Below are positions 21,126 to 63,700 of a stretch of 64,000 bases of DNA, piece after piece. The stretch is from contig OX359248.1 in assembly GCA_947179485.1 (NCBI GenBank), positions 57,608,386-57,672,385 of the forward strand. The letters run 5' to 3'. The DNA comes from Allacma fusca. Taxonomy: Eukaryota > Arthropoda > Collembola > Symphypleona > Sminthuridae. The notes under the pieces are model-generated. The model was not told where the DNA came from and searched no databases. It saw nothing but the letters and a program-made list of their open reading frames with translations. A program made the position numbers and the translations under genes. Position 1 is the first letter of the stretch, and each line of letters opens with the position of its first letter.

Positions 21126-21360
21126 CATGAGTCATAGCAGGCAATCCCAAATATTGTACTGCACCTGACAGTCCCTTTCACTTTTGTTACTCGGCCTTTT
21201 GCCATAAATGCAAAGGCCCTTTCTCTTTTCCATACACTTGAATTTTGTCTCTTGAGGAGGTTACTCTGCCCAATTCACTCCTGAATAAACTTTTACTACG
21301 GTTTTTATACTTTGTTGAAATCAATTCATTTTACAAATCATTTCTTGATAATTCATCACA
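21126..21360 (+). repeat. Satellite-embedded copia LTR fragment (first of 25 copies)
   Basis: This 235-bp segment is related to the last ~217 bp of the copia LTR at 18710-18926, in opposite orientation. Shared blocks, in the same order, are CATGAGTCA, CCTTTCACTTTT..TACTCGGC, ATAAAT..C...G.CCCTTTC, ACACTT..ATTT, AATAAA..CTTTT and the terminus TTCATCACA. The TATA box is decayed (ATAAATG) but AATAAA is kept at 21284-21289. The 5' half of the LTR is missing, replaced directly by an A monomer. After the LTR end a B monomer follows, with no primer-binding site. The same fragment occurs in every unit of the array. Confidence 0.82.
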
Positions 21361-24300
21361 AAAAGCAACAGCGCAATTTGCAAATCATATGAGAACAGCG
21401 ATGCATGGCTGGAAACGTTCCAAGCTCATCGTGAAAATTCATTTTAGAGGTGCTGCGACGATTACAAGCTAGTTGGGGAAAATGCATATCGGGTAAATAC
21501 AGCTCTGCGTGTTCCGGAAACGTTCCAAGCTCAACCTGAAACTTCGTTTGGTATGTGCTGGGACTGTTAACAGCAAGTTGGGTCAATTTTCTAATCAGGT
21601 AAATACAGCTCTGTATGGCGCGGGAACGTTCTAACGTCGACGGCAAACGTCGTTTGGGAGGTTTTGGGACTATTAAAAGCAACTGCGCAATTTGGACATC
21701 ATGTGAATACACGTTGTATGGCCTGGAAATGTTCCAAGCTCATCGTCAAACTTTGTTTGGAAGTTGTTTCGATGGTTTAAAGCAAGTTGGGGCAATTTTG
21801 GAATCAGGTGAATCCAGCTCCCTATGGCCCGGGAACGTTCTAACCTCACCTGACGTTTAGGTCACTTGTCAAGGTGTTTGACGAACTCGTCCGAATCTCT
21901 TTAAACTTTGTGAATACACACGGGCAGTCTGCTAAAGCTCAATTCTCGAATTTAAGACGCATCGAAAAACTAAACATGGCGATGAAAATGAGGTCTGGTT
22001 GCTATGGTCACTGTTTAACGTGTTTGCTGAGCTCATCCGAATCTCTTTAAACTTTGATATTACACTCAGGCAGTCTTCCAAAGCTCAATTCTCAAATTTG
22101 AGATGAATCTAAAAACTTTAAACAGCGATGAACATAAAGTGGCGTTTAGGACACTTTTTTAGGTGTTTGCCGAACTCTTCCGAATCTCCTTAAACTTTGG
22201 TGATACACTCGGGCAGTCTGCTAAAGCTCAATTCTCAAATTTGAGATGAATTGATAATTTTTGGAAAAAGCGATAAAAATGACGTGATGCTCAGGTCACT
22301 TTTTAGGTGTTTACCGAACTCGACCGAATCTCCTCAAGTTTTTCGATTACACTCGGGCAATCTGCCAAAGCTCAATTCTCGAATTTGATATTAATCGAGA
22401 AACTTTAAACATCGATGAAAATGAGGTCTCGTTGCTGTGGTCACTGTTTAACGTGTTTGCTGAGCTCATCCGAATCTCTTTAAACTTTGATATTACACTC
22501 AGGCAGTCTTCCAAAGCTCAATTCTCAAATTTGAGATGAATCTAAAAACTTTAAACAGCGATGAACATAAAGTGGCGTTTAGGACACTTTTTTAGGTGTT
22601 TGCCGAACTCTTCCGAATCTCCTTAAACTTTGGTGATACACTCGGGCAGTCTGCTAAATCTCAATTCTCAAATTTGAGATGAATTGATAATTTTTGGAAA
22701 AAGCGATAAAAATGACGTGATGCTCAGGTCACTTTTTAGGTGTTTACCGAACTCGACCGAATCTCCTCAAGTTTTTCGATTACACTCGGGCAATCTGCCA
22801 AAGCTCAATTCTCGAATTTGATATTAATCGAGAAACTTTAAACATCGATGAAAATGAGGTCTCGTTGCTGTGGTCACTGTTTAACGTGTTTGCTATGCTC
22901 GTCCGAATCTCTTTAAACTTTGGTTTTACACTCGGGCAGGCTGCCTAAGCTCAATTCTCTAATTTGAGATGAATCTAAAAACTTTAAACAGCGATGAACA
23001 TGACGTGGCGGTTAGGACACTTTTTTAGGTGTTTGCCGAACTCTTCCGAATCTCCTTAAACTTTGGTAATACACTCGGGCAGTCTGCCAAAGCTCAATTC
23101 TCAAATTTGAGATGAATTGATAATTTTTGGAAAAAACAATGAAAATGACGTGACGCTCAGGTCACTTTTTAAGGTGTTTACCGAACTCGACCGAATCTCC
23201 TCAAGTTTTGGAATTACACTCGGGCAGGCTGCCAAAGCTCAATTCTCGAATTTGATATTAATCGAGAAACTTTAAACATCGATGAAAATGAGGTCTCGTT
23301 GCTGTGGTCACTGTTTAACGTGTTTGCTAGGCTCGTCCGAATCTCTTTAAACTTTGGTTTTACACTCGGGCAGGCTGCCTAAGCTCAATTCTCGAATTTG
23401 AGATGAATCGAGAAACTTTAAACAAAGCGATGAAAATGACGTGACGTTTAGGTCACTTTTTAAGGTGTTTGCTGAACTCGTGTGAATCTATTTAAACTGG
23501 AAATAAACTCGGGCATTCTGCCAAAGCACAATTCTCGAATTTAAAATGAATCGAAAAACTTTCGGAAAAGCGATGAAAATGAATTGACGCCCACGTCACT
23601 TTTTAAGGTGTTTGCCGAACTCGTCCGAATCTCTTCAAGTTTTGGGATTACACTCGTGCAGTCTCCCAAAGCTCAATTCTCGAATTTTATATGAATCAAA
23701 AAACTTTAAACAGCGATGAAAATGAGGTCTCGTTGCTGTGGTCACTGTTTAACGTTTGCTAAGCTCGTCGGAATCTGTTTAAACTTTGGTTATACACTCG
23801 GGCTGGTTGCCTAAGCTCAATTCTCGAATTTGATATGAATCCATGAGTCATAGCAGGCAATCCCAAATATTGTACTGCACCTGACAGTCCCTTTCACTTT
23901 TGTTACTCGGCCTTTTGCCATAAATGCAAAGGCCCTTTCTCTTTTCCATACACTTGAATTTTGTCTCTTGAGGAGGTTACTCTGCCCAATTCACTCCTGA
24001 ATAAACTTTTACTACGGTTTTTATACTTTGTTGAAATCAATTCATTTTACAAATCATTTCTTGATAATTCATCACAAAAAGCAACAGCGCAATTTGCAAA
24101 TCATATGAGAACAGCGATGCATGGCTGGAAACGTTCCAAGCTCATCGTGAAAATTCATTTTAGAGGTGCTGCGACGATTACAAGCTAGTTGGGGAAAATG
24201 CATATCGGGTAAATACAGCTCTGCGTGTTCCGGAAACGTTCCAAGCTCAACCTGAAACTTCGTTTGGTATGTGCTGGGACTGTTAACAGCAAGTTGGGTC

Positions 24301-27300
24301 AATTTTCTAATCAGGTAAATACAGCTCTGTATGGCGCGGGAACGTTCTAACGTCGACGGCAAACGTCGTTTGGGAGGTTTTGGGACTATTAAAAGCAAGT
24401 GCGCAATTTGGACATCATGTGAATACACGTTGTATGGCCTGGAAATGTTCCAAGCTCATCGTCAAACTTTGTTTGGAAGTTGTTTCGATGGTTTAAAGCA
24501 AGTTGGGGCAATTTTGGAATCAGGTGAATCCAGCTCCCTATGGCCCGGGAACGTTCTAACCTCACCTGACGTTTAGGTCACTTGTCAAGGTGTTTGACGA
24601 ACTCGTCCGAATCTCTTTAAACTTTGTGAATACACACGGGCAGTCTGCTAAAGCTCAATTCTCGAATTTAAGACGCATCGAAAAACTAAACATGGCGATG
24701 AAAATGAGGTCTGGTTGCTATGGTCACTGTTTAACGTGTTTGCAGAGCTCATCCGAATCTCTTTAAACTTTGATATTACACTCAGGCAGTCTTCCAAAGC
24801 TCAATTCTCAAATTTGAGATGAATCTAAAAACTTTAAACAGCGATGAACATGAAGTGGCGTTTAGGACACTTTTTTAGGTGTTTGCCGAACTCTTCCGAA
24901 TCTCCTTAAACTTTGGTGATACACTCGGGCAGTCTGCCAAAGCTCAATTCTCAAATTTTAGATGAATTGATAATTTTTGGAAAAAGCAATGAAAATGACG
25001 TGACGCTCAGGTCACTTTTTAAGGTGTTTACCGAACTCGACCGAATCTCCTCAAGTTTTGGAATTACACTCTTGCAGGCTGCCAAAGCTCAATTCTCGAA
25101 TTTCAGATGAATTGAAAAACTTTGGAAAAAGCGATGAAAATGACGTGACGCTCAGGTCACTTCTTAAGGTGTTTGCTGAACTCGTCTGAATCTGCTTAAA
25201 CTTTGGAAATAAACTCGGGCATTCTGCCAAAGCACAATTCTCGAATTTGAGATGAATCGAAAAACTTTCGGAAAAGCGATGAAAATGAATTGACGCCCAC
25301 GTCACTTTTTAAGGTGTTTGCCGAACTCGTCCGAATCTCCTCAAGTTTTGGGATTACACTCGGGCAGTCTCCTAAAGCTCAATTCGCGAATTTTATATGA
25401 ATCAAAAAACTAAACAGCGATGAAAATGAGGTCTCGTTGCTGTAGTCACTGTTTAACGTGTTTGTAAAGCTCGTCCGAATCTGTTTAAACTTTGGTTATA
25501 CACTCGGGCTGGCTGCCTAAGCTCAATTCTCGAATTTGATATGAATCCATGAGTCATAGCAGGCAATCCCAAATATTGTATTGCACCTGACAGTCCCTTT
25601 CACTTTTGTTACTCGGCCTTTTGCCATAAATGCAAAGGCCCTTTCTCTTTTCCATACACTTGAATTTTGTCTCTTGAGGAGGTTACTCTGCCCAATTCAC
25701 TCCTGAATAAACTTTTACTACGGTTTTTATATTTTGTTGAAATCAATTCATTTTACAAATCATTTCTTGATAATTCATCACAAAAAGCAACAGCGCAATT
25801 TGCAAATCATATGAGAACAGCGATGCATGGCTGGAAACGTTCCAAGCTCATCGTGAAAATTCATTTTAGAGGTGCTGCGACGATTACAAGCTAGTTGGGG
25901 AAAATGCATATCGGGTAAATACAGCTCTGCGTGTTCCGGAAACGTTCCAAGCTCAACCTGAAACTTCGTTTGGTATGTGCTGGGACTGTTAACAGCAAGT
26001 TGGGTCAATTTTCTAATCAGGTAAATACAGCTCTGTATGGCGCGGGAACGTTCTAACGTCGACGGCAAACGTCGTTTGGGAGGTTTTGGGACTATTAAAA
26101 GGAACTGCGCAATTTGGACATCATGTGAATACACGTTGTATGGCCTGGAAATGTTCCAAGCTCATCGTCAAACTTTGTTTGGAAGTTGTTTCGATGGTTT
26201 AAAGCAAGTTGGGGCAATTTTGGAATCAGGTGAATCCAGCTCCCTATGGCCCGGGAACGTTCTAACCTCACCTGACGTTTAGGTCACTTGTCAAGGTATT
26301 TGACGAACTCGTCCGAATCTCTTTAAACTTTGTGAATACACACGGGCAGTCTGCTAAAGCTCAATTCTCGAATTTAAGACGCATCGAAAAACTAAACATG
26401 GCGATGAAAATGAGGTCTGGTTGCTATGGTCACTGTTTAACGTGTTTGCTGAGCTCATCCGAATCTCTTTAAACTTTGATATTACACTCAGGCAGTCTTC
26501 CAAAGCTCAATTCTCAAATTTGAGATGAATCTAAAAACTTTAAACAGCGATGAACATGACGTGGCGTTTAGGACACTTTTTTAGGTGTTTGCCGAACTCT
26601 TCCGAATCTCCTTAAACTTTGGTAATACACTCGGGCAGTCTGCTAAAGCTCAATTCTCAAATTTGAGATGAATTGATAATTTTTGGAAAAAGCGATAAAA
26701 ATGACGTGATGCTCAGGTCACTTTTTAGGTGTTTACCGAACTCGACCGAATCTCCTCAAGTTTTTCGATTACACTCGGGCAATCTGCCAAAGCTCAATTC
26801 TCGAATTTGATATTAATCGAGAAACTTTAAACATCGATGAAAATGAGGTCTCGTTGCTGTGGTCACTGTTTAACGTGTTTGCTATGCTCGTCTGAATCTC
26901 TTTAAACTTTGGTTTTACACTCGGGCAGGCTGCCTAAGCTCAATTCTCAAATTTGAGATGAATCTAAAAACTTTAAACAGCGATGAACATGACGTAGCGG
27001 TTAGGACACTTTTTTAGGTGTTTGCCGAACTCTTCCGAATCTCCTTAAACTTTGGTAATACACTCGGGCAGTCTGCCAAAGCTCAATTCTCAAATTTGAG
27101 ATGAATTGATAATTTTTGGAAAAAACAATGAAAATGACGTGACGCTCAGGTCACTTTTTAAGGTGTTTACCGAACTCGACCGAATCTCCTCAAGTTTTGG
27201 AATTACACTCGGGCAGGCTGCCAAAGCTCAATTCTCGAATTTGATATTAATCGAGAAACTTTAAACATCGATGAAAATGAGGTCTCGTTGCTGTGGTCAC

Positions 27301-30300
27301 TGTTTAACGTGTTTGCTAGGATCGTCCGAATCTCTTTAAACTTTGGTTTTACACTCGGGCAGGCTGCCTAAGCTCAATTCTCGAATTTGAGATGAATCGA
27401 GAAACTTTAAACAAAGCGATGAAAATGACGTGACGTTTAGGTCACTTTTTAAGGTGTTTGCTGAACTCGTGTGAATCTATTTAAACTGGAAATAAACTCG
27501 GGCATTCTGCCAAAGCACAATTCTCGAATTTAAAATGAATCGAAAAACTTTCGGAAAAGCGATGAAAATGAATTGACGCCCACGTCACTTTTTAAGGTGT
27601 TTGCCGAACTCGTCCGAATCTCCTCAAGTTTTGGGATTACACTCGGGCAGTCTCCCAAAGCTCAATTCTCGAATTTTATATGAATCAAAAAACTTTAAAC
27701 AGCGATGAAAATGAGGTCTCGTTGCTGTGGTCACTGTTTAACGTTTGCTAAGCTCGTCGGAATCTGTTTAAACTTTGGTTATACACTCGGGCTGGTTGCC
27801 TAAGCTCAATTCTCGAATTTGATATGAATCCATGAGTCATAGCAGGCAATCCCAAATATTGTACTGCACCTGACAGTCCCTTTCACTTTTGTTACTCGGC
27901 CTTTTGCCATAAATGCAAAGGCCCTTTCTCTTTTCCATACACTTGAATTTTGTCTCTTGAGGAGGTTACTCTGCCCAATTCACTCCTGAATAAACTTTTA
28001 CTACGGTTTTTATACTTTGTTGAAATCAATTCATTTTACAAATCATTTCTTGATAATTCATCACAAAAAGCAACAGCGCAATTTGCAAATCATATGAGAA
28101 CAGCGATGCATGGCTGGAAACGTTCCAAGCTCATCGTGAAAATTCATTTTAGAGGTGCTGCGACGATTACAAGCTAGTTGGGTAAAATGCATATCGGGTA
28201 AATACAGCTCTGCGTTTTCCGGAAACGTTCCAAGCTCAACCTGAAACTTCGTTTGGTATGTGCTGGGACTGTTAACAGCAAGTTGGGTCAATTTTCTAAT
28301 CAGGAAAATACAGCTCTGTATGGCGCGGGAACGTTCTAACGTCGACGGCAAACGTCGTTTGGGAGGTTTTGGGACTATTAAAAGCAACTGCGATATTTGG
28401 ACATCATGTGAATACACGTTGTATGGCCTGGAAATGTTCCAAGCTCATCGTCAAACTTTGTTTGGAAGTTGTTTCGATGGTTTAAAGCAAGTTGGGGCAA
28501 TTTTGGAATCAGGTGAATCCAGCTCCCTATGGCCCGGGAACGTTCTAACCTCACCTGACGTTTAGGTCACTTGTCAAGGTGTTTGACGAACTCGTCCGAA
28601 TCTCTTTAAACTTTGTGAATACACACGGGCAGTCTGCTAAAGCTCAATTCTCGAATTTAAGACGCATCGAAAAACTAAACATGGCGATGAAAATGAGGTC
28701 TGGTTGCTATGGTCACTGTTTAACGTGTTTGCTGAGCTCATCCGAATCTCTTTAAACTTTGATATTACACTCAGGCAGTCTTCCAAAGCTCAATTCTCAA
28801 ATTTGAGATGAATCTAAAAACTTTAAACAGCGATGAACATGACGTGGCGTTTAGGACACTTTTTTAGGTGTTTGCCGAACTCTTCCGAATCTCCTTAAAC
28901 TTTGGTGATACACTCGGGCAGTCTGCCAAAGCTCAATTCTCAAATTTTAGATGAATTGATAATTTTTGGAAAAAGCAATGAAAATGACGTGACGCTCAGG
29001 TCACTTTTTAAGGTGTTTACCGAACTCGACCGAATCTCCTCAAGTTTTGGAATTACACTCTTGCAGGCTGCCAAAGCTCAATTCTCGAATTTCAGATGAA
29101 TTGAAAAACTTTGGAAAAAGCGATGAAAATGACGTGACGCTCAGGTCACTTCTTAAGGTGTTTGCTGAACTCGTCCGAATCTGCTTAAACTTTGGAAATA
29201 AACTCGGGCATTCTGCCAAAGCACAATTCTCGAATTTGAGATGAATCGAAAAACTTTCGGAAAAGCGATGAAAATGAATTGACGCCCACGTCACTTTTTA
29301 AGGTGTTTGCCGAACTCGTCCGAATCTCCTCAAGTTTTGGGATTACACTCGGGCAGTCTCCCAAAGCTCAATTCGCGAATTTTATATGAATCAAAAAACT
29401 AAACAGCGATGAAAATGAGGTCTCGTTGCTGTAGTCACTGTTTAACGTGTTTGCTAAGCTCGTCCGAATCTGTTTAAACTTTGGTTATACACTCGGGCTG
29501 GCTGCCTAAGCTCAATTCTCGAATTTGATATGAATCCATGAGTCATAGCAGGCAATCCCAAATATTGTACTGCACCTGACAGTCCCTTTCACCTTTGTTA
29601 CTCGGCCTTTTGCCATAAATGCAAAGGCCCTTTCTCTTTTCCATACACTTGAATTTTGTCTCTTGAGGAGGTTACTCTGCCCAATTCACTCCTGAATAAA
29701 CTTTTACTACGGTTTTTATACTTTGTTGAAATCAATTCATTTTACAAATTTTTTCTTGATAATTCATAACAAAAAGCAACAGCGCAATTTGCAAATCATA
29801 TGAGAACAGCGATGCATGGCCCGGAAACGTTCCAAGCTCATCGTGAAAATTCATTTTAGAGGTGCTGCGACGATTACAAGCTAGTTGGGGAAAATGCATA
29901 TCGGGTAAATACAGCTCTGCGTGGCCCGGAAACGTTCCAAGCTCAACCTGAAACTTCGTTTGGTATGTGCTGGGACTGTTAACAGCAAGTTGGGTCAATT
30001 TTCTAATCAGGTAAATCCAGCTCCGTATGGCCCGGGAACGTTCTAACCTCACCTGACGTTTAGGTCACTTGTCAAGGTGTTTGACGAACTCGTCCGAATC
30101 TCTAAACTTTGTGAATACACACGGGCAGTCTGCTAAAGCTCAATTCTCGAATTTAAGACGCATCGAAAAACTAAACATGGCGATGAAAATGAGGTCTGGT
30201 TGCTATGGTCACTGTTTAACGTGTTTGCTGAGCTCATCCGAATCTCTTTAAACTTTGATATTACACTCAGGCAGTCTTCCAAAGCTCAATTCTCGAATTT

Positions 30301-33300
30301 GAGATGAATCTAAAAACTTTAAACAGCGATGAAAATGACGTGGCGTTTAGGACACTTTTTTAGGTGTTTGACGAACTCTTCCGAATCTCCTTAAACTTTG
30401 GTAATACACTCGGGCAGTCTGCCAAAGCTCAATTCTCAAATTTTAGATGAATTGATAATTTTTGGAAAAAGCAATGAAAATGACGTGACGCTCAGGTCAC
30501 TTTTTAAGGTGTTTACCGAACTCGACCGAATCTCCTCAAGTTTTGGTTTTACACTCGGGCAGGCTGCCAAAGCTCAATTCTCGAATTTGATATTAATCGA
30601 GAAACTTTAAACATCGATGAAAATGAGGTCTCGTTGCTGTGGTCACTGTTTAACGTGTTTGCTAGGCTCGTCCGGATCTCTTTAAACTTTGGTTTTACAC
30701 TCTTGCAGGCTGCCTAAGCTCAATTCTCGAATTTGAGATGAATCGAGAAACTTTAAACAAAGCGATGAACATGACGTGACGTTTAGGTCACTTTTTAAGG
30801 TGTTTGCTGAACTCGTCCGAATCTATTTAAACTGGAAAAAAACTCGGGCATTCTGCCAAAGCACAATTCTCGAATTTGAGATGAATCGAAAAACTTTCGG
30901 AAAAGCGATGAAAATGAATTGACGCCCACGTCACTTTTTAAGGTGTTTGCCGAACTCGTCCGAATCTCCTCAAGTTTTTGGATTACACTCGGGCAGTCTC
31001 CCAAAGCTCAATTCGCGAATTTTATATGAATCAAAAAACTAAACAGCGATGAAAATGAGGTCTCGTTGCTGTAGTCACTGTTTAACGTGTTTGCTAAGCT
31101 CGTCGGAATCTGTTTAAACTTTGGTTATACACTCGGGCTGGTTGCCTAAGCTCAATTCTCGAATTTGATATGAATCCATGAGTCATAGCAGGCAATCCCA
31201 AATATTGTACTGCACCTGACAGTCCCTTTCACTTTTGTTACTCGGCCTTTTGCCATAAATGCAAAGGCCCTTTCTCTTTTCCATACACTTGAATTTTGTC
31301 TCTTGAGGAGGTTACTCTGCCCAATTCACTCCTGAATAAACTTTTACTACGGTTTTTATACTTTGTTGAAATCAATTCATTTTACAAATTATTTCTTGAT
31401 AATTCATCACAAAAAGCAACAGCGCAATTTGCAAATCATATGAGAACAGCGATGCATGGCTGGAAACGTTCCAAGCTCATCGTGAAAATTCATTTTAGAG
31501 GTGCTGCGACGATTACAAGCTAGTTGGGGAAAATGCATATCGGGTAAATACAGCTCTGCGTGGCCCGGAAACGTTCCAAGCTCAACCTGAAACTTCGTTT
31601 GGTATGTGCTGGGACTGTTAACAGCAAGTTGGGTCAATTTTCTAATCAGGTAAATACAGCTCTGTATGGCGCGGGAACGTTCTAACGTCGACGGCAAACG
31701 TCGTTTGGGAGGTTTTGGGACTATTAAAAGCAACTGCACAATTTGGACATCATGTGAATACACGTTGTATGGCCTGGAAACGTTCTAAGCTCATCGTCAA
31801 ACTTCGTTTGGAAGTTGTTTCGATGGTTTAAAGCAAGTTGGGGCAATTTTGGAATCAGGTGAATCCAGCTCCCTATGGCCCGGGAACGTTCTAACCTCAC
31901 CTGACGTTTAGGTCACTTGTCAAGGTGTTCGACGAACTCGTCCGAATCTCTTTAAACTTTGTGAATACACACGGGCAGTCTGCTAAAGCTCAATTCTCGA
32001 ATTTAAGACGCATCGAAAAACTAAACATGGCGATGAAAATGAGGTCTGGTTGCTATGGTCACTGTTTAACGTGTTTGCTGAGCTCATCCGAATCTCTTTA
32101 AACTTTGATATTACACTCAGACAGTCTTCCAAAGCTCAATTCTCAAACTTGAGATGAATCTAAAAACTTTAAACAGCGATGAACATGACGTGGCGTTTAG
32201 GACACTTTTTTAGGTGTTTGCCAAACTCTTCCGAATCTCCTTAAATTTTGGTAATACACTCGGGCAGTCTGCCAAAGCTCAATTCTCAAATTTTAGATGA
32301 ATTGATAATTTTTGGAAAAAGCAATGAAAATGACGTGACGCTCAGGTCACTTTTTAAGGTGTTTACCGAACTCGACCGAATCTCCTCAAGTTTTGGAATT
32401 ACACTCGGACAGGCTGCCAAAGCTATATTCTCGAATTTCAGATGAATTGAAAAACTGGAAAAAGCGATGAAAATGACGTGACGCTCAGGTCACTTTTTAA
32501 GGTGTTTACCGAACTCGACCGAATCTCCTCAAGTTTTGGAAATAAACTCGGGCATTCTGCCAAAGCACAATTCTCGAATTTGAGATGAATCGAAAAACTT
32601 TCGGAAAAGCGATGAAAATGAATTGACGCCCACGTCACTTTTTAAGGTGTTTGCCGAACTCGTCCGAATCTCCTCAAGTTTTGGGATTACACTCGGGCAG
32701 TCTCCCAAAGCTCAATTCGCGAATTTTATATGAATCAAAAAACTAAACAGCGATGAAAATGAGGTCTCGTTGCTGTAGTCACTGTTTAACGTGTTTGCTA
32801 AGCTCGTCCGAATCTGTTTAAACTTTGGATGTACACTCGGGCTGGCTGCCTAAGCTCAATTCTCGAATTTGATATGAATCCATGAGTCATGGCAGGCAAT
32901 CCCAAATATTGTACTGCACCTGACAGTCCCTTTCACTTTTGTTACTCGGCCTTTTGCCATAACTGCAAAGGCCCTTTCTCTTTTCCATACACTTGAATTT
33001 TGTCTCTTGAGGAGGTTACTCTGCCCAATTCACTCCTGAATAAACTTTTACTACGGTTTTTATACTTTGTTGAAATCAATTCATTTTACAAATCATTTCT
33101 TGATAATTCATCACAAAAAGCAACAGCGCAATTTGCAAATCATATGAGAACAGCGCTGCATGGCCCAGGAACGTTCCAAGCTCATCGTGAAAATTCATTT
33201 TAGAGGTGCTGCGACGATTACAAGCTAGTTGGGGAAAATGCATATCGGGTAAATACAGCTCTGCGTGGCCCGGAAACGTTCCAAGCTCAACCTGAAACTT

Positions 33301-34140: not shown

Positions 34141-34210
34141 TTTCAGATGAATTCAATTTTGGTCAATTTTCTAATCAGGTAAATCCAGCTCCCTATGGCC
34201 CGGGAACGTT
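34141..34210. repeat. Aberrant A-to-B junction inside an A block
   Basis: An A monomer is cut at 'gatgaattca' and joins straight into a B monomer ('ttggtcaattttctaatcagg'), with no LTR fragment between. The B piece then runs back into A monomers. The insertion explains why this unit is 2032 bp instead of about 1705 bp. Confidence 0.8.
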
Positions 34211-37200
34211 CTAACCTCACCTGACGTTTAGGTCACTTGTCAAGGTGTTTGACGAACTCGTCCGAAACTCTTTAAACTTTGTGAATACACACGGGCAGTA
34301 TGCTAAAGCTCAATTCTCGAATTTAAGACGCATCGAAAAACTAAACATGGCGATGAAAATGAGGTCTGGTTGCTATGGTCACTGTTTAACGTGTTTGCTG
34401 AGCTCATCCGAATCTCTTTAAACTTTGATATTACACTCAGGCAGTCTTCCAAAGCTCAATTCTCAAATTTGAGATGAATCTAAAAACTTTAAACAGCGAT
34501 GAAAATGACGTGACGCTCAGGTCACTTTTTAAGGTGTTTGCTGAACTCGTCTGAATCTGCTTAAACTTTGGAAATAAACTCGGGCATTCTGCCAAAGCAC
34601 AATTCTCGAATTTGAGATGAATCGAAAAACTTTCGGAAAAGCGATGAAAATGAATTGACGCCCACGTCACTTTTTAAGGTGTTTGCCGAACTCGTCCGAA
34701 TCTCCTCAAGTTTTGGGATTACACTCGGGCAGTCTCCCAAAGCTCAATTCGCGAATTTTATATGAATCAAAAAACTAAACAGCGATGAAAATGAGGTCTC
34801 GTTGCTGTAGTCACTGTTTAACGTGTTTGCTAAGCTCGTCCGAATCTGTTTAAACTTTGGATGTACACTCGGGCTGGCTGCCTAAGCTCAATTCTCGAAT
34901 TTGATATGAATCCATGAGTCATGGCAGGCAATCCCAAATATTGTACTGCACCTGACAGTCCCTTTCACTTTTGTTACTCGGCCTTTTGCCATAACTGCAA
35001 AGGCCCTTTCTCTTTTCCATACACTTGAATTTTGTCTCTTGAGGAGGTTACTCTGCCCAATTCACTCCTGAATAAACTTTTACTACGGTTTTTATACTTT
35101 GTTGAAATCAATTCATTTTACAAATCATTTCTTGATAATTCATCACAAAAAGCAACAGCGCAATTTGCAAATCATATGAGAACAGCGCTGCATGGCCCAG
35201 GAACGTTCCAAGCTCATCGTGAAAATTCATTTTAGAGGTGCTGCGACGATTACAAGCTAGTTGGGGAAAATGCATATCGGGTAAATACAGCTCTGCGTGG
35301 CCCGGAAACGTTCCAAGCTCAACCTGAAACTTCGTTTGGTATGTGCTGGGACTGTTAACAGCAAGTTGGGTCAATTTTCTAATCAGGTAAATACATCTCT
35401 GTATGGCGCGGGAACGTTCTAACGTCGACGGCAAACGTCGTTTGGGAGGTTTTGGGACTATTAAAAGCAACTGCGCAATTTGGACATCATGTGAATACAC
35501 GTTGTATGGCCTGGAAACGTTCTATGCTCATCGTCAAACTTCGTTTGGAAGTTGTTTCGATGGTTTAAAGCAAGTGGGGGCAATTTTGGAATCAGGTGAA
35601 TCCAGCTCCTTATGGCCCGGGAACGTTCTAACCTCACCTGACGTTTAGGTCACTTGTCAAGGTGTTTGACGAACTCGTCCGAATCTCTTTAAACTTTGTG
35701 AATACACACGGGCAGTCTGCTAAAGCTCAATTCTCGAATTTAAGACGCATCGAAAAACTAAACATGGCGATGAAAATGAGGTCTGGTTGCTATGGTCACT
35801 GTTTAACGTGTTTGCTGAGCTCATCCGAATCTCTTTAAACTTTGATATTACACTCAGGCAGTCTTCCAAAGCTCAATTCTCAAATTTGAGATGAATCTAA
35901 AAACTTTAAACAGCGATGAACATGACGTGGCGTTTAGGACACTTTTTTAGGTGTTTGCCGAACTCTTCCGAATCTCCTTAAACTTTGGTAATACACTCGG
36001 GCAGTCTGCCAAAGCTCAATTCTCAAATTTTAGATGAATTGATAATTTTTGGAAAAAGCAATGAAAATGACGTGACGCTCAGGTCACTTTTTAAGGTGTT
36101 TACCGAACTCGACCGAATCTCCTCAAGTTTTGGAATTACACTCTTGCAGGCTGCCAAAGCTCAATTCTCGAATTTCAGATGAATTGAAAAACTGGAAAAA
36201 GCGATGAAAATGACGTGACGCTCAGGTCACTTTTTAAGGTGTTTGCTGAACTCGTCTGAATCTGCTTAAACTTTGGAAATAAACTCGGGCATTCTGCCAA
36301 AGCACAATTCTCGAATTTGAGATGAATCGAAAAACTTTCGGAAAAGCGATGAAAATGAATTGACGCCCACGTCACTTTTTAAGGTGTTTGCCGAACTCGT
36401 CCGAATCTCCTCAAGTTTTGGGATTACACTCGGGCAGTCTCCCAAAGCTCAATTCGCGAATTTTATATGAATCAAAAAACTAAACAGCGATGAAAATGAG
36501 GTCTCGTTGCTGTAGTCACTGTTTAACGTGTTTGCTAAGCTCGTCCGAATCTGTTTAAACTTTGGTTATACACTCGGGCTGGCTGCCTAAGCTCAATTCT
36601 CGAATTTGATATGAATCCATGAGTCATAGCAGGCAATCCCAAATATTGTACTGCACCTGACAGTCCCTTTCACTTTTGTTACTCGGCCTTTTGCCATAAA
36701 TGCAAAGGCCCTTTCTCTTTTCCATACACTTGAATTTTGTCTCTTGAGGAGGTTACTCTGCCCAATTCACTCCTGAATAAACTTTTACTACGGATTTTAT
36801 ACTTTGTTGAAATCAATTCATTTTACAAATTATTTCTTGATAATTCATCACAAAAAGCAACAGCGCAATTTGCAAATCATATGAGAACAGCGATGCATGG
36901 CCCGGAAACGTTCCAAGCTCATCGTGAAAATTCATTTTAGAGGTGCTGCGACGATTACAAGCTAGTTGGGGAAAATGCATATCGGGTAAATACAGCTCTG
37001 CGTGGCCCGGAAACGTTCCAAGCTCAACCTGAAACTTCGTTTGGTATGTGCTGGGACTGTTAACCGCAAGTTGGGTCAATTTTCTAATCAGGTAAATCCA
37101 GCTCCCTATGGCCCGGGAACGTTCTAACCTCACCTGACGTTTAGGTCACTTGTCAAGGTGTTTGACGAACTCGTCCGAAACTCTTTAAACTTTGTGAATA

Positions 37201-43182: not shown

Positions 43183-43812
43183 CATGAGTCATAGCAGGCA
43201 ATCCCAAATATTGTACTGCACCTGACAGTCCCTTTCACTTTTGTTACTCGGCCTTTTGCCATAACTGCAAAGGCCCTTTCTCTTTTCCATACACTTGAAT
43301 TTTGTCTCTTGAGGAGGTTACTCTGCCCAATTCACTCCTGAATAAACTTTTACTACGGTTTTTATACTTTGTTGAAATCAATTCATTTTACAAATTATTT
43401 CTTGATAATTCATCACAAAAAGCAACAGCGCAATTTGCAAATCATATGAGAACAGCGATGCATGGCCCGGAAACGTTCCAAGCTCATCGTGAAAATTCAT
43501 TTTAGAGGTGCTGCGACGATTACAAGCTAGTTGGGGAAAATGCATATCGGGTAAATACAGCTCTGCGTGGCCCGGAAACGTTCCAAGCTCAACCTGAAAC
43601 TTCGTTTGGTATGTGCTGGGACTGTTAACCGCAAGTTGGGTCAATTTTCTAATCAGGTAAATCCAGCTCCCTATGGCCCGGGAACGTTCTAACCTCACCT
43701 GACGTTTAGGTCACTTGTCAAGGTGTTTGACGAACTCGTCCGAAACTCTTTAAACTTTGTGAATACACACGGGCAGTCTGCTAAAGCTCAATTCTCGAAT
43801 TTGATATGAATC
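43183..43812. repeat. Minimal 630-bp unit
   Basis: The shortest unit has the LTR fragment, three B cores and less than one A monomer (~112 bp) before the next LTR fragment. The junction 'aaagctcaattctcgaatt' to 'tgatatgaatccatgag' lies inside the A monomer, so the unit looks like an out-of-register crossover product between the first and last A monomers of a block. Confidence 0.85.
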
Positions 43813-46800
43813 CATGAGTCATAGCAGGCAATCCCAAATATTGTACTGCACCTGACAGTCCCTTTCACTTTTGTTACTCGGCCTTTTGCCATAACTGGCA
43901 TGGCCCTTTCTCTTTTCCATACACTTGAATTTTGTCTCTTGAGGAGGTTACTCTGCCCAATTCACTCCTGAATAAACTTTTACTACGGTTTTTATACTTT
44001 GTTGAAATCAATTCATTTTACAAATTATTTCTTGATAATTCATCACAAAAAGCAACAGCGCAATTTGCAAATCATATGAGAACAGCGATGCATGGCCCGG
44101 AAACGTTCCAAGCTCATCGTGAAAATTCATTTTAGAGGTGCTGCGACGATTACAAGCTAGTTGGGGAAAATGCATATCGGGTAAATACAGCTCTGCGTGG
44201 CCCGGAAACGTTCCAAGCTCAACCTGAAACTTCGTTTGGTATGTGCTGGGACTGTTAACCGCAAGTTGGGTCAATTTTCTAATCAGGTAAATCCAGCTCC
44301 CTATGGCCCGGGAACGTTCTAACCTCACCTGACGTTTAGGTCACTTGTCAAGGTGTTTGACGAACTCGTCCGAAACTCTTTAAACTTTGTGAATACACAC
44401 GGGCAGTCTGCTAAAGCTCAATTCTCGAATTTAAGACGCATCGAAAAACTAAACATGGCGATGAAAATGAGGTCTGGTTGCTATGGTCACTGTTTAACGT
44501 GTTTGCTGAGCTCATCCGAATCTCTTTAAACTTTGATATTACACTCAGGCAGTCTTCCAAAGCTCAATTCTCAAATTTGAGATGAATCTAAAAACTTTAA
44601 ACAGCGATGAACATGACGTGGCGTTTAGGACACTTTTTTAGGTGTTTGCCGAACTCTTCCGAATCTCCTTAAACTTTGGTAATACACTCGGGCAGTCTGC
44701 CAAAGCTCAATTCTCAAATTTTAGATGAATTGATAATTTTTGGAAAAAGCAATGAAAATGACGTGACGCTCAGGTCACTTTTTAAGGTGTTTACCGAACT
44801 CGACCGAATCTCCTCAAGTTTTGGAATTACACTCTTGCAGGCTGCCAAAGCTCAATTCTCGAATTTCAGATGAATTGAAAAACTAAACAGCGATGAAAAT
44901 GAGGTCTCGTTGCTGTGGTCACTGTTTAACGTGTTTGCTAAGCTCGTCCGAATCTGTTTAAACTTTGGTTATACACTCGGACTGGCTGCCTAAGCTCAAT
45001 TCTCGAATTTGATATGAATCCATGAGTCATAGCAGGCAATCCCAAATATTGTACTGCACCTGACAGTCCCTTTCACTTTTGTTACTCGGCCTTTTGCCAT
45101 AACTGCAAAGGCCCTTTCTCTTTTCCATACACATGAATTTTGTCTCTTGAGGAGGTTACTCTGCCCAATTCACTCCTGAATAAACTTTTACTACGGTTTT
45201 TATACTTTGTTGAAATCAATTCATTTTACAAATTATTTCTTGATAATTCATCACAAAAAGCAACAGCGCAATTTGCAAATCATATGAGAACAGCGATGCA
45301 TGGCCCGGAAACGTTCCAAGCTCATCGTGAAAATTCATTTTAGAGGTGCTGCGACGATTACAAGCTAGTTGGGGAAAATGCATATCGGGTAAATACAGCT
45401 CTGCGTGGCCCGGAAACGTTCCAAGCTCAACCTGAAACTTCGTTTGGTATGTGCTGGGACTGTTAACCGCAAGTTGGGTCAATTTTCTAATCAGGTAAAT
45501 CCAGCTCCCTATGGCCCGGGAACGTTCTAACCTCACCTGACGTTTAGGTCACTTGTCAAGGTGTTTGACGAACTCGTCCGAAACTCTTTAAACTTTGTGA
45601 ATACACACGGGCAGTCTGCTAAAGCTCAATTCTCGAATTTAAGACGCATCGAAAAACTAAACATGGCGATGAAAATGAGGTCTGGTTGCTATGGTCACTG
45701 TTTAACGTGTTTGCTGAGCTCATCCGAATCTCTTTAAACTTTGATATTACACTCAGGCAGTCTTCCAAAGCTCAATTCTCAAATTTGAGATGAATCTAAA
45801 AACTTTAAACAGCGATGAACATGACGTGGCGTTTAGGACACTTTTTTAGGTGTTTGCCGAACTCTTCCGAATCTCCTTAAACTTTGGTAATACACTCGGG
45901 CAGTCTGCCAAAGCTCAATTCTCAAATTTTAGATGAATTGATAATTTTTGGAAAAAGCAATGAAAATGACGTGACGCTCAGGTCACTTTTTAAGGTGTTT
46001 ACCGAACTCGACCGAATCTCCTCAAGTTTTGGAATTACACTCTTGCAGGCTGCCAAAGCTCAATTCTCGAATTTCAGATGAATTGAAAAACTTTGGAAAA
46101 AGCGATGAAAATGACGTGACGCTCAGGTCACTTTTTAAGGTGTTTGCTGAACTCGTCTGAATCTGCTTAAACTTTGGAAATAAACTCGGGCATTCTGCCA
46201 AAGCACAATTCTCGAATTTGAGATGAATCGAAAAACTTTCGGAAAAGCGATGAAAATGAATTGACGCCCACGTCACTTTTTAAGGTGTTTGCCGAACTCT
46301 TCCGAATCTCCTTAAACTTTGGTAATACACTCGGGCAGTCTGCCAAAGCTCAATTCTCAAATTTTAGATGAATTGATAATTTTTGGAAAAAGCAATGAAA
46401 ATGACGTGACGCTCAGGTCACTTTTTAAGGTGTTTACCGAACTCGACCGAATCTCCTCAAGTTTTGGAATTACACTCTTGCAGGCTGCCAAAGCTCAATT
46501 CTCGAATTTCAGATGAATTGAAAAACTGGAAAAAGCGATGAAAATGACGTGACGCTCAGGTCACTTTTTAAGGTGTTTGCTGAACTCGTCTGAATCTGCT
46601 TAAACTTTGGAAATAAACTCGGGCATTCTGCCAAAGCACAATTCTCGAATTTGAGATGAATCGAAAAACTTTCGGAAAAGCGATGAAAATGAATTGACGC
46701 CCACGTCACTTTTTAAGGTGTTTGCCGAACTCGTCCGAATCTCCTCAAGTTTTGGGATTACACTCGGGCAGTCTCCCAAAGCTCAATTCTCGAATTTTAT

Positions 46801-55800: not shown

Positions 55801-58800
55801 GTTCTAACCTCACCTGACGTTTAGGTCACTTGTCAAGGTGTTTGACGAACTCGTCCCAATCTCTAAACTTTGTGAATACACACGGGCAGTCTGCTAAAGC
55901 TCAATTCTCGAATTTAAGACGCATCGAAAAACTAAACATGGCGATGAAAATGAGGTCTGGTTGCTATGGTCACTGTTTAACGTGTTTGCTGAGCTCATCC
56001 GAATCTCTTTAAACTTTGATATTACACTCAGGCAGTCTTCCAAAGCTCAATTCTCGAATTTGAGATGAATCTAAAAACTTTAAACAGCGATGAACATGAA
56101 GTGGCGTTTAGGACACTTTTTTTGGTGTTTGCCGAACTCTTCCGAATCTCCTTAAACTTTGGTAATACACTCGGGCAGTCTGCCAAAGCTCAATTCTCAA
56201 ATTTTAGATGAATTGATAATTTTTGGAAAAAGCAATGAAAATGACGTGACGCTCAGGTCACTTTTTAAGGTGTTTACCGAACTCGACCGAATCTCCTCAA
56301 GTTTTGGAATTACACTCGGGCAGTCTGCCAAAGCTCAATTCTCGAATTTCAGATGAATTGAAAAACTGGAAAAAGCGATGAAAATGACGTGACGCTCAGG
56401 TCACTTTTTAAGGTGTTTGCTGAACTCGTCTGAATCTGCTTAAACTTTGGAAATAAACTCGGGCATTCTGCCAAAGCACAATTCTCGAATTTGAGATGAA
56501 TCGAAAAACTTTCGGAAAAGCGATGAAAATGAATTGACGCCCACGTCACTTTTTAAGGTGTTTGCCGAACTCGTCCGAATCTCCTCAAGTTTTGGGATTA
56601 CACTCGGGCAGTCTCCCAAAGCTCAATTCTCGAATTTTATATGAATCAAAAAACTAAACAGCGATGAAAATGAGGTCTCGTTGCTGTGGTCACTGTTTAA
56701 CGTGTTTGCTAAGCTCGTCCGAATCTGTTTAAACTTTGGTTATACACTCGGACTGGCTGCCTAAGCTCAATTCTCGAATTTGATATGAATCCATGAGTCA
56801 TAGCAGGCAATCCCAAATATTGTACTGCACCTGACAGTCCCTTTCACTTTTGTTACTCGGCCTTTTGCCATAAATGCAAAGGCCCTTTCTCTTTTCCATA
56901 CACTTGAATTTTGTCTCTTGAGGAGGTTACTCTGCCCAATTCACTCCTGAATAAACTTTTACTACGGTTTTTATACTTTGTTGAAATCAATTCATTTTAC
57001 AAATTATTTCTTGATAATTCATCACAAAAAGCAACAGCGCAATTTGCAAATCATATGAGAACAGCGATGCATGGCCCGGAAACGTTCCAAGCTCATCGTG
57101 AAAATTCATTTTAGAGGTGCTGCGACGATTACAAGCTAGTTGGGGAAAATGCATATCGGGTAAATACAGCTCTGCGTGGCCCGGAAACGTTCCAAGCTCA
57201 ACCTGAAACTTCGTTTGGTATGTGCTGGGACTGTTAACCGCAAGTTGGGTCAATTTTCTAATCAGGTAAATCCAGCTCCCTATGGCCCGGGAACGTTCTA
57301 ACCTCACCTGACGTTTAGGTCACTTGTCAAGGTGTTTGACGAACTCGTCCCAATCTCTAAACTTTGTGAATACACACGGGCAGTCTGCTAAAGCTCAATT
57401 CTCGAATTTAAGACGCATCGAAAAACTAAACATGGCGATGAAAATGAGGTCTGGTTGCTATGGTCACTGTTTAACGTGTTTGCTGAGCTCATCCGAATCT
57501 CTTTAAACTTTGATATTACACTCAGGCAGTCTTCCAAAGCTCAATTCTCAAATTTGAGATGAATCTAAAAACTTTAAACAGCGATGAACATGAAGTGGCG
57601 TTTAGGACACTTTTTTAGGTGTTTGCCGAACTCTTCCGAATCTCCTTAAACTTTGGTAATACACTCGGGCAGTCTGCCAAAGCTCAATTCTCAAATTTTA
57701 GATGAATTGATAATTTTTGGAAAAAGCAATGAAAATGACGTGACGCTCAGGTCACTTTTTAAGGTGTTTACCGAACTCGACCGAATCTCCTCAAGTTTTG
57801 GAATTACACTCTTGCAGGCTGCCAAAGCTCAATTCTCGAATTTCAGATGAATTGAAAAACTTTGGGAAAAGCGATGAAAATGACGTGACGCTCAGGTCAC
57901 TTTTTAAGGTGTTTGCTGAACTCGTCTGAATCTGCTTAAACTTTGGAAATAAACTCGGGCATTCTGCCAAAGCACAATTCTCGAATTTGAGATGAATCGA
58001 AAAACTTTCGGAAAAGCGATGAAAATGAATTGACGCCCACGTCACTTTTTAAGGTGTTTGCCGAACTCTTCCGAATCTCCTTAAACTTTGGTTATACACT
58101 CGGGCAGTCTGCCAAAGCTCAATTCTCAAATTTTAGATGAATTGATAATTTTTGGAAAAAGCAATGAAAATGACGTGACGCTCAGGTCACTTTTTAAGGT
58201 GTTTACCGAACTCGACCGAATCTCCTCAAGTTTTGGAATTACACTCGGGCAGTCTGCCAAAGCTCAATTCTCGAATTTCAGATGAATTGAAAAACTGGAA
58301 AAAGCGATGAAAATGACGTGACGCTCAGGTCACTTTTTAAGGTGTTTGCTGAACTCGTCTGAATCTGCTTAAACTTTGGAAATAAACTCGGGCATTCTGC
58401 CAAAGCACAATTCTCGAATTTGAGATGAATCGAAAAACTTTCGGAAAAGCGATGAAAATGAATTGACGCCCACGTCACTTTTTAAGGTGTTTGCCGAACT
58501 CGTCCGAATCTCCTCAAGTTTTGGGATTACACTCGGGCAGTCTCCCAAAGCTCAATTCTCGAATTTTATATGAATCAAAAAACTAAACAGCGATGAAAAT
58601 GAGGTCTCGTTGCTGTGGTCACTGTTTAACGTGTTTGCTAAGCTCGTCCGAATCTGTTTAAACTTTGGTTATACACTCGGACTGGCTGCCTAAGCTCAAT
58701 TCTCGAATTTGATATGAATCCATGAGTCATAGCAGGCAATCCCAAATATTGTACTGCACCTGACAGTCCCTTTCACTTTTGTTACTCGGCCTTTTGCCAT

Positions 58801-59462
58801 AAATGCAAAGGCCCTTTCTCTTTTCCATACACTTGAATTTTGTCTCTTGAGGAGGTTACTCTGCCCAATTCACTCCTGAATAAACTTTTACTACGGTTTT
58901 TATACTTTGTTGAAATCAATTCATTTTACAAATTATTTCTTGATAATTCATCACAAAAAGCAACAGCGCAATTTGCAAATCATATGAGAACAGCGATGCA
59001 TGGCCCGGAAACGTTCCAAGCTCATCGTGAAAATTCATTTTAGAGGTGCTGCGACGATTACAAGCTAGTTGGGGAAAATGCATATCGGGTAAATACAGCT
59101 CTGCGTGGCCCGGAAACGTTCCAAGCTCAACCTGAAACTTCGTTTGGTATGTGCTGGGACTGTTAACCGCAAGTTGGGTCAATTTTCTAATCAGGTAAAT
59201 CCAGCTCCCTATGGCCCGGGAACGTTCTAACCTCACCTGACGTTTAGGTCACTTGTCAAGGTGTTTGACGAACTCGTCCCAATCTCTAAACTTTGTGAAT
59301 ACACACGGGCAGTCTGCTAAAGCTCAATTCTCGAATTTAAGACGCATCGAAAAACTAAACATGGCGATGAAAATGAGGTCTGGTTGCTATGGTCACTGTT
59401 TAACGTGTTTGCTGAGCTCATCCGAATCTCTTTAAACTTTGATATTACACTCAGGCAGTCTT

Positions 59463-60720
59463 CCAAAGCTCAATTCTCAAATTTGAGATGAATCTAAAAA
59501 CTTTAAACAGCGATGAACATGAAGTGGCGTTTAGGACACTTTTTTTGGTGTTTGCCGAACTCTTCCGAATCTCCTTAAACTTTGGTAATACACTCGGGCA
59601 GTCTGCCAAAGCTCAATTCTCAAATTTTAGATGAATTGATAATTTTTGGAAAAAGCAATGAAAATGACGTGACGCTCAGGTCACTTTTTAAGGTGTTTAC
59701 CGAACTCGACCGAATCTCCTCAAGTTTTGGAATTACACTCGGGCAGTCTGCCAAAGCTCAATTCTCGAATTTCAGATGAATTGAAAAACTGGAAAAAGCG
59801 ATGAAAATGACGTGACGCTCAGGTCACTTTTTAAGGTGTTTGCTGAACTCGTCTGAATCTGCTTAAACTTTGGAAATAAACTCGGGCATTCTGCCAAAGC
59901 ACAATTCTCGAATTTGAGATGAATCGCAAAACTTTCGGAAAAGCGATGAAAATGAATTGACGCCCACGTCACTTTTTAAGGTGTTTGCCGAACTCGTCCG
60001 AATCTCCTCAAGTTTTGGGATTACACTCGGGCAGTCTCCCAAAGCTCAATTCTCGAATTTTATATGAATCAAAAAACTAAACAGCGATGAAAATGAGGTC
60101 TCGTTGCTGTGGTCACTGTTTAACGTGTTTGCTGAGCTCATCCGAATCTCTTTAAACTTTGATATTACACTCAGGCAGTCTTCCAAAGCTCAATTCTCAA
60201 ATTTGAGATGAATCTAAAAACTTTAAACAGCGATGAACATGAAGTGGCGTTTAGGACACTTTTTTTGGTGTTTGCCGAACTCTTCCGAATCTCCTTAAAC
60301 TTTGGTAATACACTCGGGCAGTCTGCCAAAGCTCAATTCTCAAATTTTAGATGAATTGATAATTTTTGGAAAAAGCAATGAAAATGACGTGACGCTCAGG
60401 TCACTTTTTAAGGTGTTTACCGAACTCGACCGAATCTCCTCAAGTTTTGGAATTACACTCGGGCAGGCTGCCAAAGCTCAATTCTCGAATTTCAGATGAA
60501 TTGAAAAACTGGAAAAAGCGATGAAAATGACGTGACGCTCAGGTCACTTTTTAAGGTGTTTGCTGAACTCGTCTGAATCTGCTTAAACTTTGGAAATAAA
60601 CTCGGGCATTCTGCCAAAGCACAATTCTCGAATTTGAGAGGAATCGAAAAACTTTCGGAAAAGCGATGAAAATGAATTGACGCCCACGTCACTTTTTAAG
60701 GTGTTTGCCGAACTCGTCCG
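59463..60720. repeat. Partly duplicated A block
   Basis: About 720 bp of A monomers is present twice in succession: the segments around 59582 and 60302 match closely. The join is near 60120, where an end-type monomer ('tcgttgctgtggtcactg') passes into a start-type one ('gtttgctgagctcatcc'). This makes the unit 2212 bp long. Confidence 0.78.
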
Positions 60721-63700
60721 AATCTCCTCAAGTTTTGGGATTACACGGGCAGTCTCCCAAAGCTCAATTCTCGAATTTTATATGAATCAAAAAACTAAAC
60801 AGCGATGAAAATGAGGTCTCGTTGCTGTGGTCACTGTTTAACGTGTTTGCTAAGCTCGTCCGAATCTGTTTAAACTTTGGTTATACACTCGGACTGGCTG
60901 CCTAAGCTCAATTCTCGAATTTGATATGAATCCATGAGTCATAGCAGGCAATCCCAAATATTGTACTGCACCTGACAGTCCCTTTCACTTTTGTTACTCG
61001 GCCTTTTGCCATAAATGCAAAGGCCCTTTCTCTTTTCCATACACTTGAATTTTGTCTCTTGAGGAGGTTACTCTGCCCAATTCACTCCTGAATAAACTTT
61101 TACTACGGTTTTTATACTTTGTTGAAATCAATTCATTTTACAAATTATTTCTTGATAATTCATCACAAAAAGCAACAGCGCAATTTGCAAATCATATGAG
61201 AACAGCGATGCATGGCCCGGAAACGTTCCAAGCTCATCGTGAAAATTCATTTTAGAGGTGCTGCGACGATTACAAGCTAGTTGGGGAAAATGCATATCGG
61301 GTAAATACAGCTCTGCGTGGCCCGGAAACGTTCCAAGCTCAACCTGAAACTTCGTTTGGTATGTGCTGGGACTGTTAACCGCAAGTTGGGTCAATTTTCT
61401 AATCAGGTAAATCCAGCTCCCTATGGCCCGGGAACGTTCTAACCTCACCTGACGTTTAGGTCACTTGTCAAGGTGTTTGACGAACTCGTCCCAATCTCTA
61501 AACTTTGTGAATACACACGGGCAGTCTGCTAAAGCTCAATTCTCGAATTTAAGACGCATCGAAAAACTAAACATGGCGATGAAAATGAGGTCTGGTTGCT
61601 ATGGTCACTGTTTAACGTGTTTGCTGAGCTCATCCGAATCTCTTTAAACTTTGATATTACACTCAGGCAGTCTTCCAAAGCTCAATTCTCAAATTTGAGA
61701 TGAATCTAAAAACTTTAAACAGCGATGAACATGAAGTGGCGTTTAGGACACTTTTTTTGGTGTTTGCCGAACTCTTCCGAATCTCCTTAAACTTTGGTAA
61801 TACACTCGGGCAGTCTGCCAAAGCTCAATTCTCAAATTTTAGATGAATTGATAATTTTTGGAAAAAGCAATGAAAATGACGTGACGCTCAGGTCACTTTT
61901 TAAGGTGTTTACCGAACTCGACCGAATCTCCTCAAGTTTTGGAATTACACTCTTGCAGGCTGCCAAAGCTCAATTCTCGAATTTCAGATGAATTGAAAAA
62001 CTTTGGGAAAAGCAAAGAAAATGACGTGACGCTCAGGTCACTTTTTAAGGTGTTTGCTGAACTCGTCTGAATCTGCTTAAACTTTGGAAATAAACTCGGG
62101 CATTCTGCCAAAGCACAATTCTCGAATTTGAGATGAATCGAAAAACTTTCGGAAAAGCGATGAAAATGAATTGACGCCCACGTCACTTTTTAAGGTGTTT
62201 ACCGAACTCGACCGAATCTCCTCAAGTTTTGGAATTACACTCTTGCAGGCTGCCAAAGCTCAATTCTCGAATTTCAGATGAATTGAAAAACTTTGGAAAA
62301 AGCGATGAAAATGAATTGACGCCCACGTCACTTTTTAAGGTGTTTGCCGAACTCTTCCGAATCTCCTTAAACTTTGGTAATAAACTCGGGCAGTCTGCCA
62401 AAGCTCAATACTCAAATTTTAGATGAATTGATAATTTTTGGAAAAAGCAATGAAAATGACGTGACGCTCAGGTCACTTTTTAAGGTGTTTACCGAACTCG
62501 ACCGAATCTCCTCAAGTTTTCGAATTACACTCGGGCAGTCTGCTAAAGCTCAATTCTCGAATTTCAGATTAATTGAAAAACTGGAAAAAGCGATGAAAAT
62601 GACGTGACGCTCAGGTCACTTTTTAAGGTGTTTGCTGAACTCGTCTGAATCTGCTTAAACTTTGGAAATAAACTCGGGCATTCTGCCAAAGCACAATTCT
62701 CGAATTTGAGATGAATCGAAAAACTTTCGGAAAAGCGATGAAAATGAATTGACGCCCACGTCACTTTTTAAGGTGTTTGCCGAACTCGTCCGAATCTCCT
62801 CAAGTTTTGGGATTACACTCGGGCAGTCTCCCAAAGCTCAATTCTCGAATTTTATATGAATCAAAAAACTAAACAGCGATGAAAATGAGGTCTCGTTGCT
62901 GTGGTCACTGTTTAACGTGTTTGCTAAGCTCGTCCGAATCTGTTTAAACTTTGGTTATACACTCGGACTGGCTGCCTAAGCTCAATTCTCGAATTTGATA
63001 TGAATCCATGAGTCATAGCAGGCAATCCCAAATATTGTACTGCACCTGACAGTCCCTTTCACTTTTGTTACTCGGCCTTTTGCCATAAATGCAAAGGCCC
63101 TTTCTCTTTTCCATACACTTGAATTTTGTCTCTTGAGGAGGTTACTCTGCCCAATTCACTCCTGAATAAACTTTTACTACGGTTTTTATACTTTGTTGAA
63201 ATCAATTCATTTTACAAATTATTTCTTGATAATTCATCACAAAAAGCAACAGCGCAATTTGCAAATCATATGAGAACAGCGATGCATGGCCCGGAAACGT
63301 TCCAAGCTCATCGTGAAAATTCATTTTAGAGGTGCTGCGACGATTACAAGCTAGTTGGGGAAAATGCATATCGGGTAAATACAGCTCTGCGTGGCCCGGA
63401 AACGTTCCAAGCTCAACCTGAAACTTCGTTTGGTATGTGCTGGGACTGTTAACCGCAAGTTGGGTCAATTTTCTAATCAGGTAAATCCAGCTCCCTATGG
63501 CCCGGGAACGTTCTAACCTCACCTGACGTTTAGGTCACTTGTCAAGGTGTTTGACGAACTCGTCCCAATCTCTAAACTTTGTGAATACACACGGGCAGTC
63601 TGCTAAAGCTCAATTCTCGAATTTAAGACGCATCGAAAAACTAAACATGGCGATGAAAATGAGGTCTGGTTGCTATGGTCACTGTTTAACGTGTTTGCTG

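Follow-up and report, generated by a model that had tools for sequence, protein, structure and literature searches.

How does the end of a retrotransposon become a standing part of a satellite repeat? The question is raised by a stretch of 64,000 nucleotides from the springtail Allacma fusca (contig OX359248.1, positions 57,608,386 to 57,672,385; hereafter the window). An earlier note on this DNA had seen a segment of ~235 bp in every higher-order unit of a satellite and had matched it, by eye, to the final ~217 bp of a copia long terminal repeat (LTR). We call the segment L, and the two satellite monomers that share the unit with it b (~106 bp) and a (~145 bp). Our analysis indicates that L is quite probably the 3′ half of an old copia LTR, from a relative of the element found next to the array (17874-19179), which would have been truncated, fused to satellite DNA and amplified as an L-b-a composite.

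Copies of the LTR-like segment

BLAST of the first L copy (21126-21360) on the window returned 26 matches, one of them a partial match on the copia LTR itself and the other 25 full-length copies of L. All 25 are 235 bp long, indel-free, on the plus strand and 97.9-100% identical to copy 1. They extend from copy 1, which also entered the alignment to the LTR, to copy 25 (63007-63241), and the span of 21126-63241 obtained by BLAST and by alignment of the copies coincides exactly with the limits within which the earlier note had counted 25 copies of ~235 bp. Copies 1-13 start at 21126, 23842, 25548, 27831, 29537, 31177, 32881, 34913, 36618, 38547, 40479, 41687 and 43183, and copies 14-25 at 43813, 45021, 46952, 48450, 49946, 51440, 53369, 55298, 56792, 58721, 60933 and 63007. 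Among the 25 copies, 16 of the 235 columns are variable, and the pairwise difference averages 0.97% with a maximum of 3.0%.

Homology between L and the copia LTR

L was compared with the LTR of the neighbouring copia element (470 bp, 18710-19179, minus strand), the last 217 bp of which lie at 18710-18926. In the pairwise alignment against shuffled controls that the earlier note had proposed as a check, copy 1 scored 51 against the reverse complement of 18710-18926 under strict scoring (maximum of 1,000 dinucleotide shuffles, 36) and 59 under looser scoring (maximum of 1,000 dinucleotide shuffles, 34); the opposite strand of the LTR end gave 19 and 10.5, respectively. The L consensus aligned with the full LTR at a score of 60.5, where 2,000 dinucleotide shuffles reached at most 35.5 and control windows at most 21.0 (564 satellite windows), 21.5 (42 gag windows) and 36.5 (300 windows of mitochondrial sequence and a 487-bp repeat). 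This alignment holds 159 identities, 38 mismatches and 58 gap columns, which amounts to identity at 81% of aligned bases or 62% of columns. L corresponds to LTR positions 254-470, and the first nine and last nine bases are identical to those of the LTR.

Tested part by part with 500 shuffles each, LTR 254-330, 331-400 and 401-470 matched L with z values of 8.1, 4.2 and 4.6, and LTR 1-253 showed no match to L (z −0.9). A finer split into six stretches, each set against 5000 mononucleotide shuffles, supported five of them on their own (0 to 13 shuffles as good): 254-299 (1), 254-285 (0), 300-371 (0), 372-470 (10) and 430-470 (13). The stretch around the TATA site, LTR 300-371, is the one best conserved in L, and the TATAAAT of the LTR reads CATAAAT there.

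Could the similarity stem from chance or from composition, both sequences being AT-rich with LTR-like motifs? Some of the 3′ half is AT-rich and gives weak support: for LTR 372-440, which contains the AATAAA block, 504 of the 5000 mononucleotide shuffles were as good, and the AATAAA of L and that of the LTR are out of register in the alignment of this stretch. One test with 200 mononucleotide shuffles also gave the reverse strand a z of 3.6, as compared with 13.9 for the true strand. However, no shuffle and no control window approached the observed score, and the end shared by the two sequences is the exact LTR terminus. Together these refute an origin by chance or composition, to which we give practically no credence. 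On sequence comparison, the homology of L with the last 217 bp of the copia LTR was confirmed, and the two align in order, as the earlier note had claimed. The collinearity of its shared blocks stands, with the exception that the AATAAA block cannot count as independent evidence, since so many shuffles did as well.

Junctions and flanks of L

At its 3′ end L reaches the exact 3′ terminus of the LTR and b sequence follows directly, with no primer site. On the 5′ side the LTR is cut midway and joined to an a monomer that breaks off after GATATGAATC. The left junction is exact in all 25 copies and the right junction in 24 of the 25, the exception being the copy at 29537, where one base of the LTR end is substituted (TTCATAACA). 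Because both junctions are common to the copies, a single fusion underlies all 25. These tandem copies with their common junctions bear out the view that the LTR piece has become a fixed part of the repeat unit, and the absence of the first 253 bp of the LTR from L, together with its stop at the LTR 3′ end, agrees with a truncated LTR rather than a whole element. The 150 bp beyond the 3′ end of L did not resemble the internal region of copia (378 of 1,000 mononucleotide shuffles were as good), nor did the 253 bp to the left of L match the first 253 bp of the LTR (864 of 1,000). By eye, no target-site duplication was seen around L (left ...GAATC, right AAAAG).

These junctions bear on two other readings. 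Under the first, another copia family left L as a short but complete solo LTR of 233 bp (TGAGTCA...ATTCATCACA): TG stands two bases into L, CA stands at its end, and the homology begins right at the TG. However, the start of L lacks an inverted terminus (CATGAGTCATAG, compared with TGTGATGAATTA read from the end), while in the related LTR the inverted termini are perfect over 8 bp; the homology begins at position 254 of this 470-bp relative; and L, without a target-site duplication, is flanked by two different satellites. With the 3′ terminus present, the 5′ terminus absent and flanks that mismatch by eye, a short solo LTR seems unlikely. In the second reading, the L-b-a units are tandem copies of a non-autonomous LTR element (LTR-internal-LTR-internal) that multiplied by recombination between LTRs. 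It agrees with the single LTR-like block per unit and its constant orientation, but it is contradicted by the missing primer site: by eye, neither a primer-binding site follows L (AAAAGCAACAGCG) nor does a purine tract occur in the 40 bases before it (GAATTTGATATGAATC). L is also cut at its 5′ end, and the "internal" part would consist of two satellites whose copy numbers vary and which do not strongly resemble the LTR or the gag region; this makes a tandem element very improbable. What L does display, significant collinear homology to an LTR and tandem amplification with common junctions, is what characterizes an LTR-derived satellite.

Organization of the higher-order unit

Decomposed by a greedy reading of profile hits, the unit runs from L through two or four b monomers to between 1 and 14 a monomers. 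In the first full unit, the b block (21361-21850, plus strand) consists of a partial b, four b of ~106 bp and a 20-bp partial b, and the a block (21851-23841, plus strand) of 14 a of ~145 bp, the last one cut at ...GATATGAATC where L starts. To the left, a partial unit adjoining the copia insertion (19180-21125, plus strand) comprises four b, the first one cut, and eleven a. It has no L copy, presumably because the copia insertion cuts the unit to the right of the expected site of L. The earlier note had assigned the segment to every unit; inside one unit, however, a b remnant (~34153-34221, limits approximate, plus strand) has a directly on both sides and no L. The 24 L-to-L intervals range from 630 to 2716 bp and include classes of 1494-1498 (five intervals), 1704-1706 (four) and 1929-1932 bp (six), a pattern that unequal exchange of entire a blocks would produce.

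At L column 214, picked from the 16 variable columns, six of the seven four-b units have C and all 18 two-b units have T (Fisher p = 4e-5), so that at this column L varies along with the class of its unit. The two-b unit at 29537-31176 stands among four-b units, and its L carries three private variants, including the TTCATAACA terminus. In 17 of the 18 two-b units (43813 was left out, its upstream a being in another phase) the mean difference was 0.74% for L, 0.21% for b and 1.4, 2.2 and 7.0% for three a stretches; in the seven four-b units it was 0.77% for L, 1.8% for b and 0.6-3.6% for a. The divergence of L (0.74-0.77%) falls among the values for the adjoining a and b (0.2-7.0%), and the comparison gave no sign of special constraint on L relative to them.

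In comparisons with 200 mononucleotide shuffles each, neither the LTR nor the gag region showed strong similarity to a, b or the 487-bp repeat. The largest z values among them, 2.9 (plus strand) and 3.0 (minus strand) for the copia internal region against a, are taken as composition because both strands are about equal. In the same kind of test b gave a z of 3.4 against L (2 of 200 shuffles as good) and of 3.2, on one strand, against the 487-bp repeat (1 of 200). A 26-base pattern of the a monomer had 0 matches in viral contigs.

The neighbouring copia element

The copia element that served for comparison lies on the minus strand. Its gag fragment (17874-18565), an open frame cut short at a scaffold gap (17674-17873), matches the Pfam family Retrotran_gag_2 (PF14223; E 3.2e-29, 102 bits, cut-off 27). 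Upstream of gag come a primer-like TGGTAGCTAGAGC and the LTR, which ends in ATTTCATCACA; the primer-binding site, TGGTAGCTAGAGCG... (18690-18709, minus strand), directly follows the LTR end and resembles the 3′ end of initiator tRNA-Met. The LTR, the 5′ one of the element, has inverted termini (TGTGATGA / TCATCACA), TATAAA at LTR position 329 and AATAAA at 402. Its length was set at 470 bp because the start, TGTGATGACA at 19179, inverts its end over 8 bases; the LTR is thus longer than the stretch 18710-18926 given in the earlier note, which is its end. The copia-type gag, the TG...CA inverted termini and the adjacent primer site mark this as a copia element, the far end of which lies beyond the 200-N gap. 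Comparison of the gag protein with viral contigs yielded four pattern matches, among which no relative was confirmed.

To the right of the LTR the b satellite resumes in mid-monomer. Over 700-bp stretches this flank matches the sequence from 21458 onward with 690 identities, 5 mismatches and 10 gap positions, and a second intact unit with 686 identities, 9 mismatches and 10 gap positions. As the interrupted unit otherwise matches an intact one nearly base for base, the copia at 18710-19179 is a later insertion, in opposite orientation, into an already formed unit. Judged by its sequence, this copy is not the direct source of L, since ~19% of aligned bases differ and 58 columns are gaps; the parent LTR would be a diverged relative. 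The two copia ends (19180 and 21361), their LTRs in opposite orientation, abut b 4 bp apart in the monomer alignment, a coincidence with a chance probability of ~9/106 that was noticed after the fact. The two junctions are best read as independent events, because of the opposite orientation of the LTRs and the 19% of aligned bases that differ. A target preference of copia for the b monomer is possible, and two events are too few to show it.

A model for the origin of the composite

How could the end of an LTR have entered the satellite? Insertion is suggested because the 3′ terminus of L runs straight into b with no intervening primer site, just as an integrated LTR does at its outer edge. An old copia element would have inserted into a b monomer, and a deletion or illegitimate exchange would then have cost it all sequence upstream of mid-LTR and joined what remained to an a array, so that a single L-b-a composite became the founder. 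This founder may have been amplified and homogenized by unequal crossing-over or gene conversion, with the counts of a (1-14) and b (2 or 4) continuing to change, and the second copia would later have landed, in opposite orientation, in a unit that was already complete. In this process L most likely plays a passive part, as a passenger. Alternatively, L might be more than a passenger: with the core-promoter block of copia (LTR 300-371) placed in a constant orientation before each b-a block, successive captures of copia ends at one spot of the b monomer (two insertions 4 bp apart) might have equipped the satellite with regularly spaced transcription starts that feed heterochromatin formation. 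The change from TATAAAT to CATAAAT and the lack of special constraint on L beside its neighbours argue against such a role, which we consider quite unlikely.

Several points weigh against the derivation of L from a truncated and amplified LTR. LTR 372-440 is unsupported when taken alone. The strictest scoring tried leaves LTR 300-371 as the sole stretch that aligns locally with L, and under permissive scoring the alignment continues beyond both ends; the breakpoints therefore rest on the junction sequence and the flank tests. The truncation is judged against a diverged relative, the parental element not having been found, and the order of events is drawn from one window. To these are added the a-b-a junction that lacks L, and Mantel tests of L against its neighbours that were suggestive only (r = 0.24, p = 0.10; r = 0.28, p = 0.06).

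The left part of the window

Positions 1-7790 hold 16 copies of the 487-bp tandem repeat (94% matches, 30% GC), which showed no significant similarity to the copia LTR. On one contig, 7776-17673 carries, named by eye, nad2 (5′ part missing), cox1, cox2, atp8, atp6, cox3, nad3, nad5, nad4, nad6 and cytb; the interior of nad2 is fused to the 487-bp repeat, and the nad5 and nad4 frames are interrupted at or close to homopolymer runs (C8 at 13725, A9 at 14394, A10 at 16182). This mitochondrial block is either a nuclear copy of mitochondrial DNA or an assembly chimera. In the nad2-cox1 interval the anticodons GTA (minus), TCA (plus) and GCA (minus) were recognized by eye as trnY-trnW-trnC. The Rfam tRNA model found one tRNA within 8380-8660, at 8488-8556, so that the middle one, trnW, alone is confirmed by the model; ARAGORN found no tRNA in 7700-17673. 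Also by eye, there is a trnL2-like loop between cox1 and cox2 and a trnK-like fold between cox2 and atp8, its stem holding the only GTC there (10971). No trnD was seen by eye between cox2 and atp8, and the Rfam model gave no tRNA in 10170-11030. According to a comparative study, the order nad2-trnY-trnW-trnC-cox1 occurs, of all the Sminthuridae compared, in Allacma fusca only, and trnD is translocated in that family (PMC7782307). The gene order in the window would by itself suggest A. fusca or a close relative.

The scaffold gap of 200 N joins the contig of mitochondrial genes and 487-bp repeat to that of copia and satellite, and no sequence in the window supports the join. YaHS writes gaps of 200 N. 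The A. fusca assembly is described as scaffolded with YaHS (PMC10427803).

Comparison with known LTR-derived satellites

In the open-access springtail literature, as far as it was covered, no title or abstract opening names a satellite of this kind, and the words "satellite" and "repeat" do not occur in the main texts of two A. fusca papers (PMC9630974, PMC10427803). Elsewhere, the incorporation of LTR ends into satellites is an established process in animals and plants. A review table lists LTR-derived satellites from a fish, a rodent and a wild potato: MALREP of Monopterus albus, from the LTR of a gypsy element; RPCS of Ctenomys, from a retroviral LTR; and Sobo of Solanum bulbocastanum, from the LTR of SORE-1 (PMC9659126). 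The L-b-a satellite resembles them in that LTR sequence is incorporated in a tandemly repeated satellite. Compared by the rows of that table, they differ in that the LTR is given as the source region of MALREP, RPCS and Sobo, whereas L is one of three blocks, beside two unrelated satellites.

A unit stitched together from different pieces and then amplified also recalls the hypothesis that composite satellite monomers arise from "TE graveyards" (transposable elements; PMC12628747). As described there, such monomers contain short stretches like several transposons, whereas L-b-a combines half of one LTR, its terminus exact, with two satellite families. Likewise, the satellites of Lathyrus sativus share with L an origin in an LTR element; they derive from tandem repeats inside Ogre LTR elements (PMC7004042), in contrast to the capture of a single LTR end seen here.

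The L-b-a satellite adds a new case to the LTR-derived satellites already known, and would probably add an early-branching hexapod to the organisms in which satellites have incorporated LTR sequence. It is a clear and sharply resolved example: the sequence shows both where the transposon ends and where a break fuses it to a second satellite, and the later insertion of a related copia next door serves as a comparison for L.

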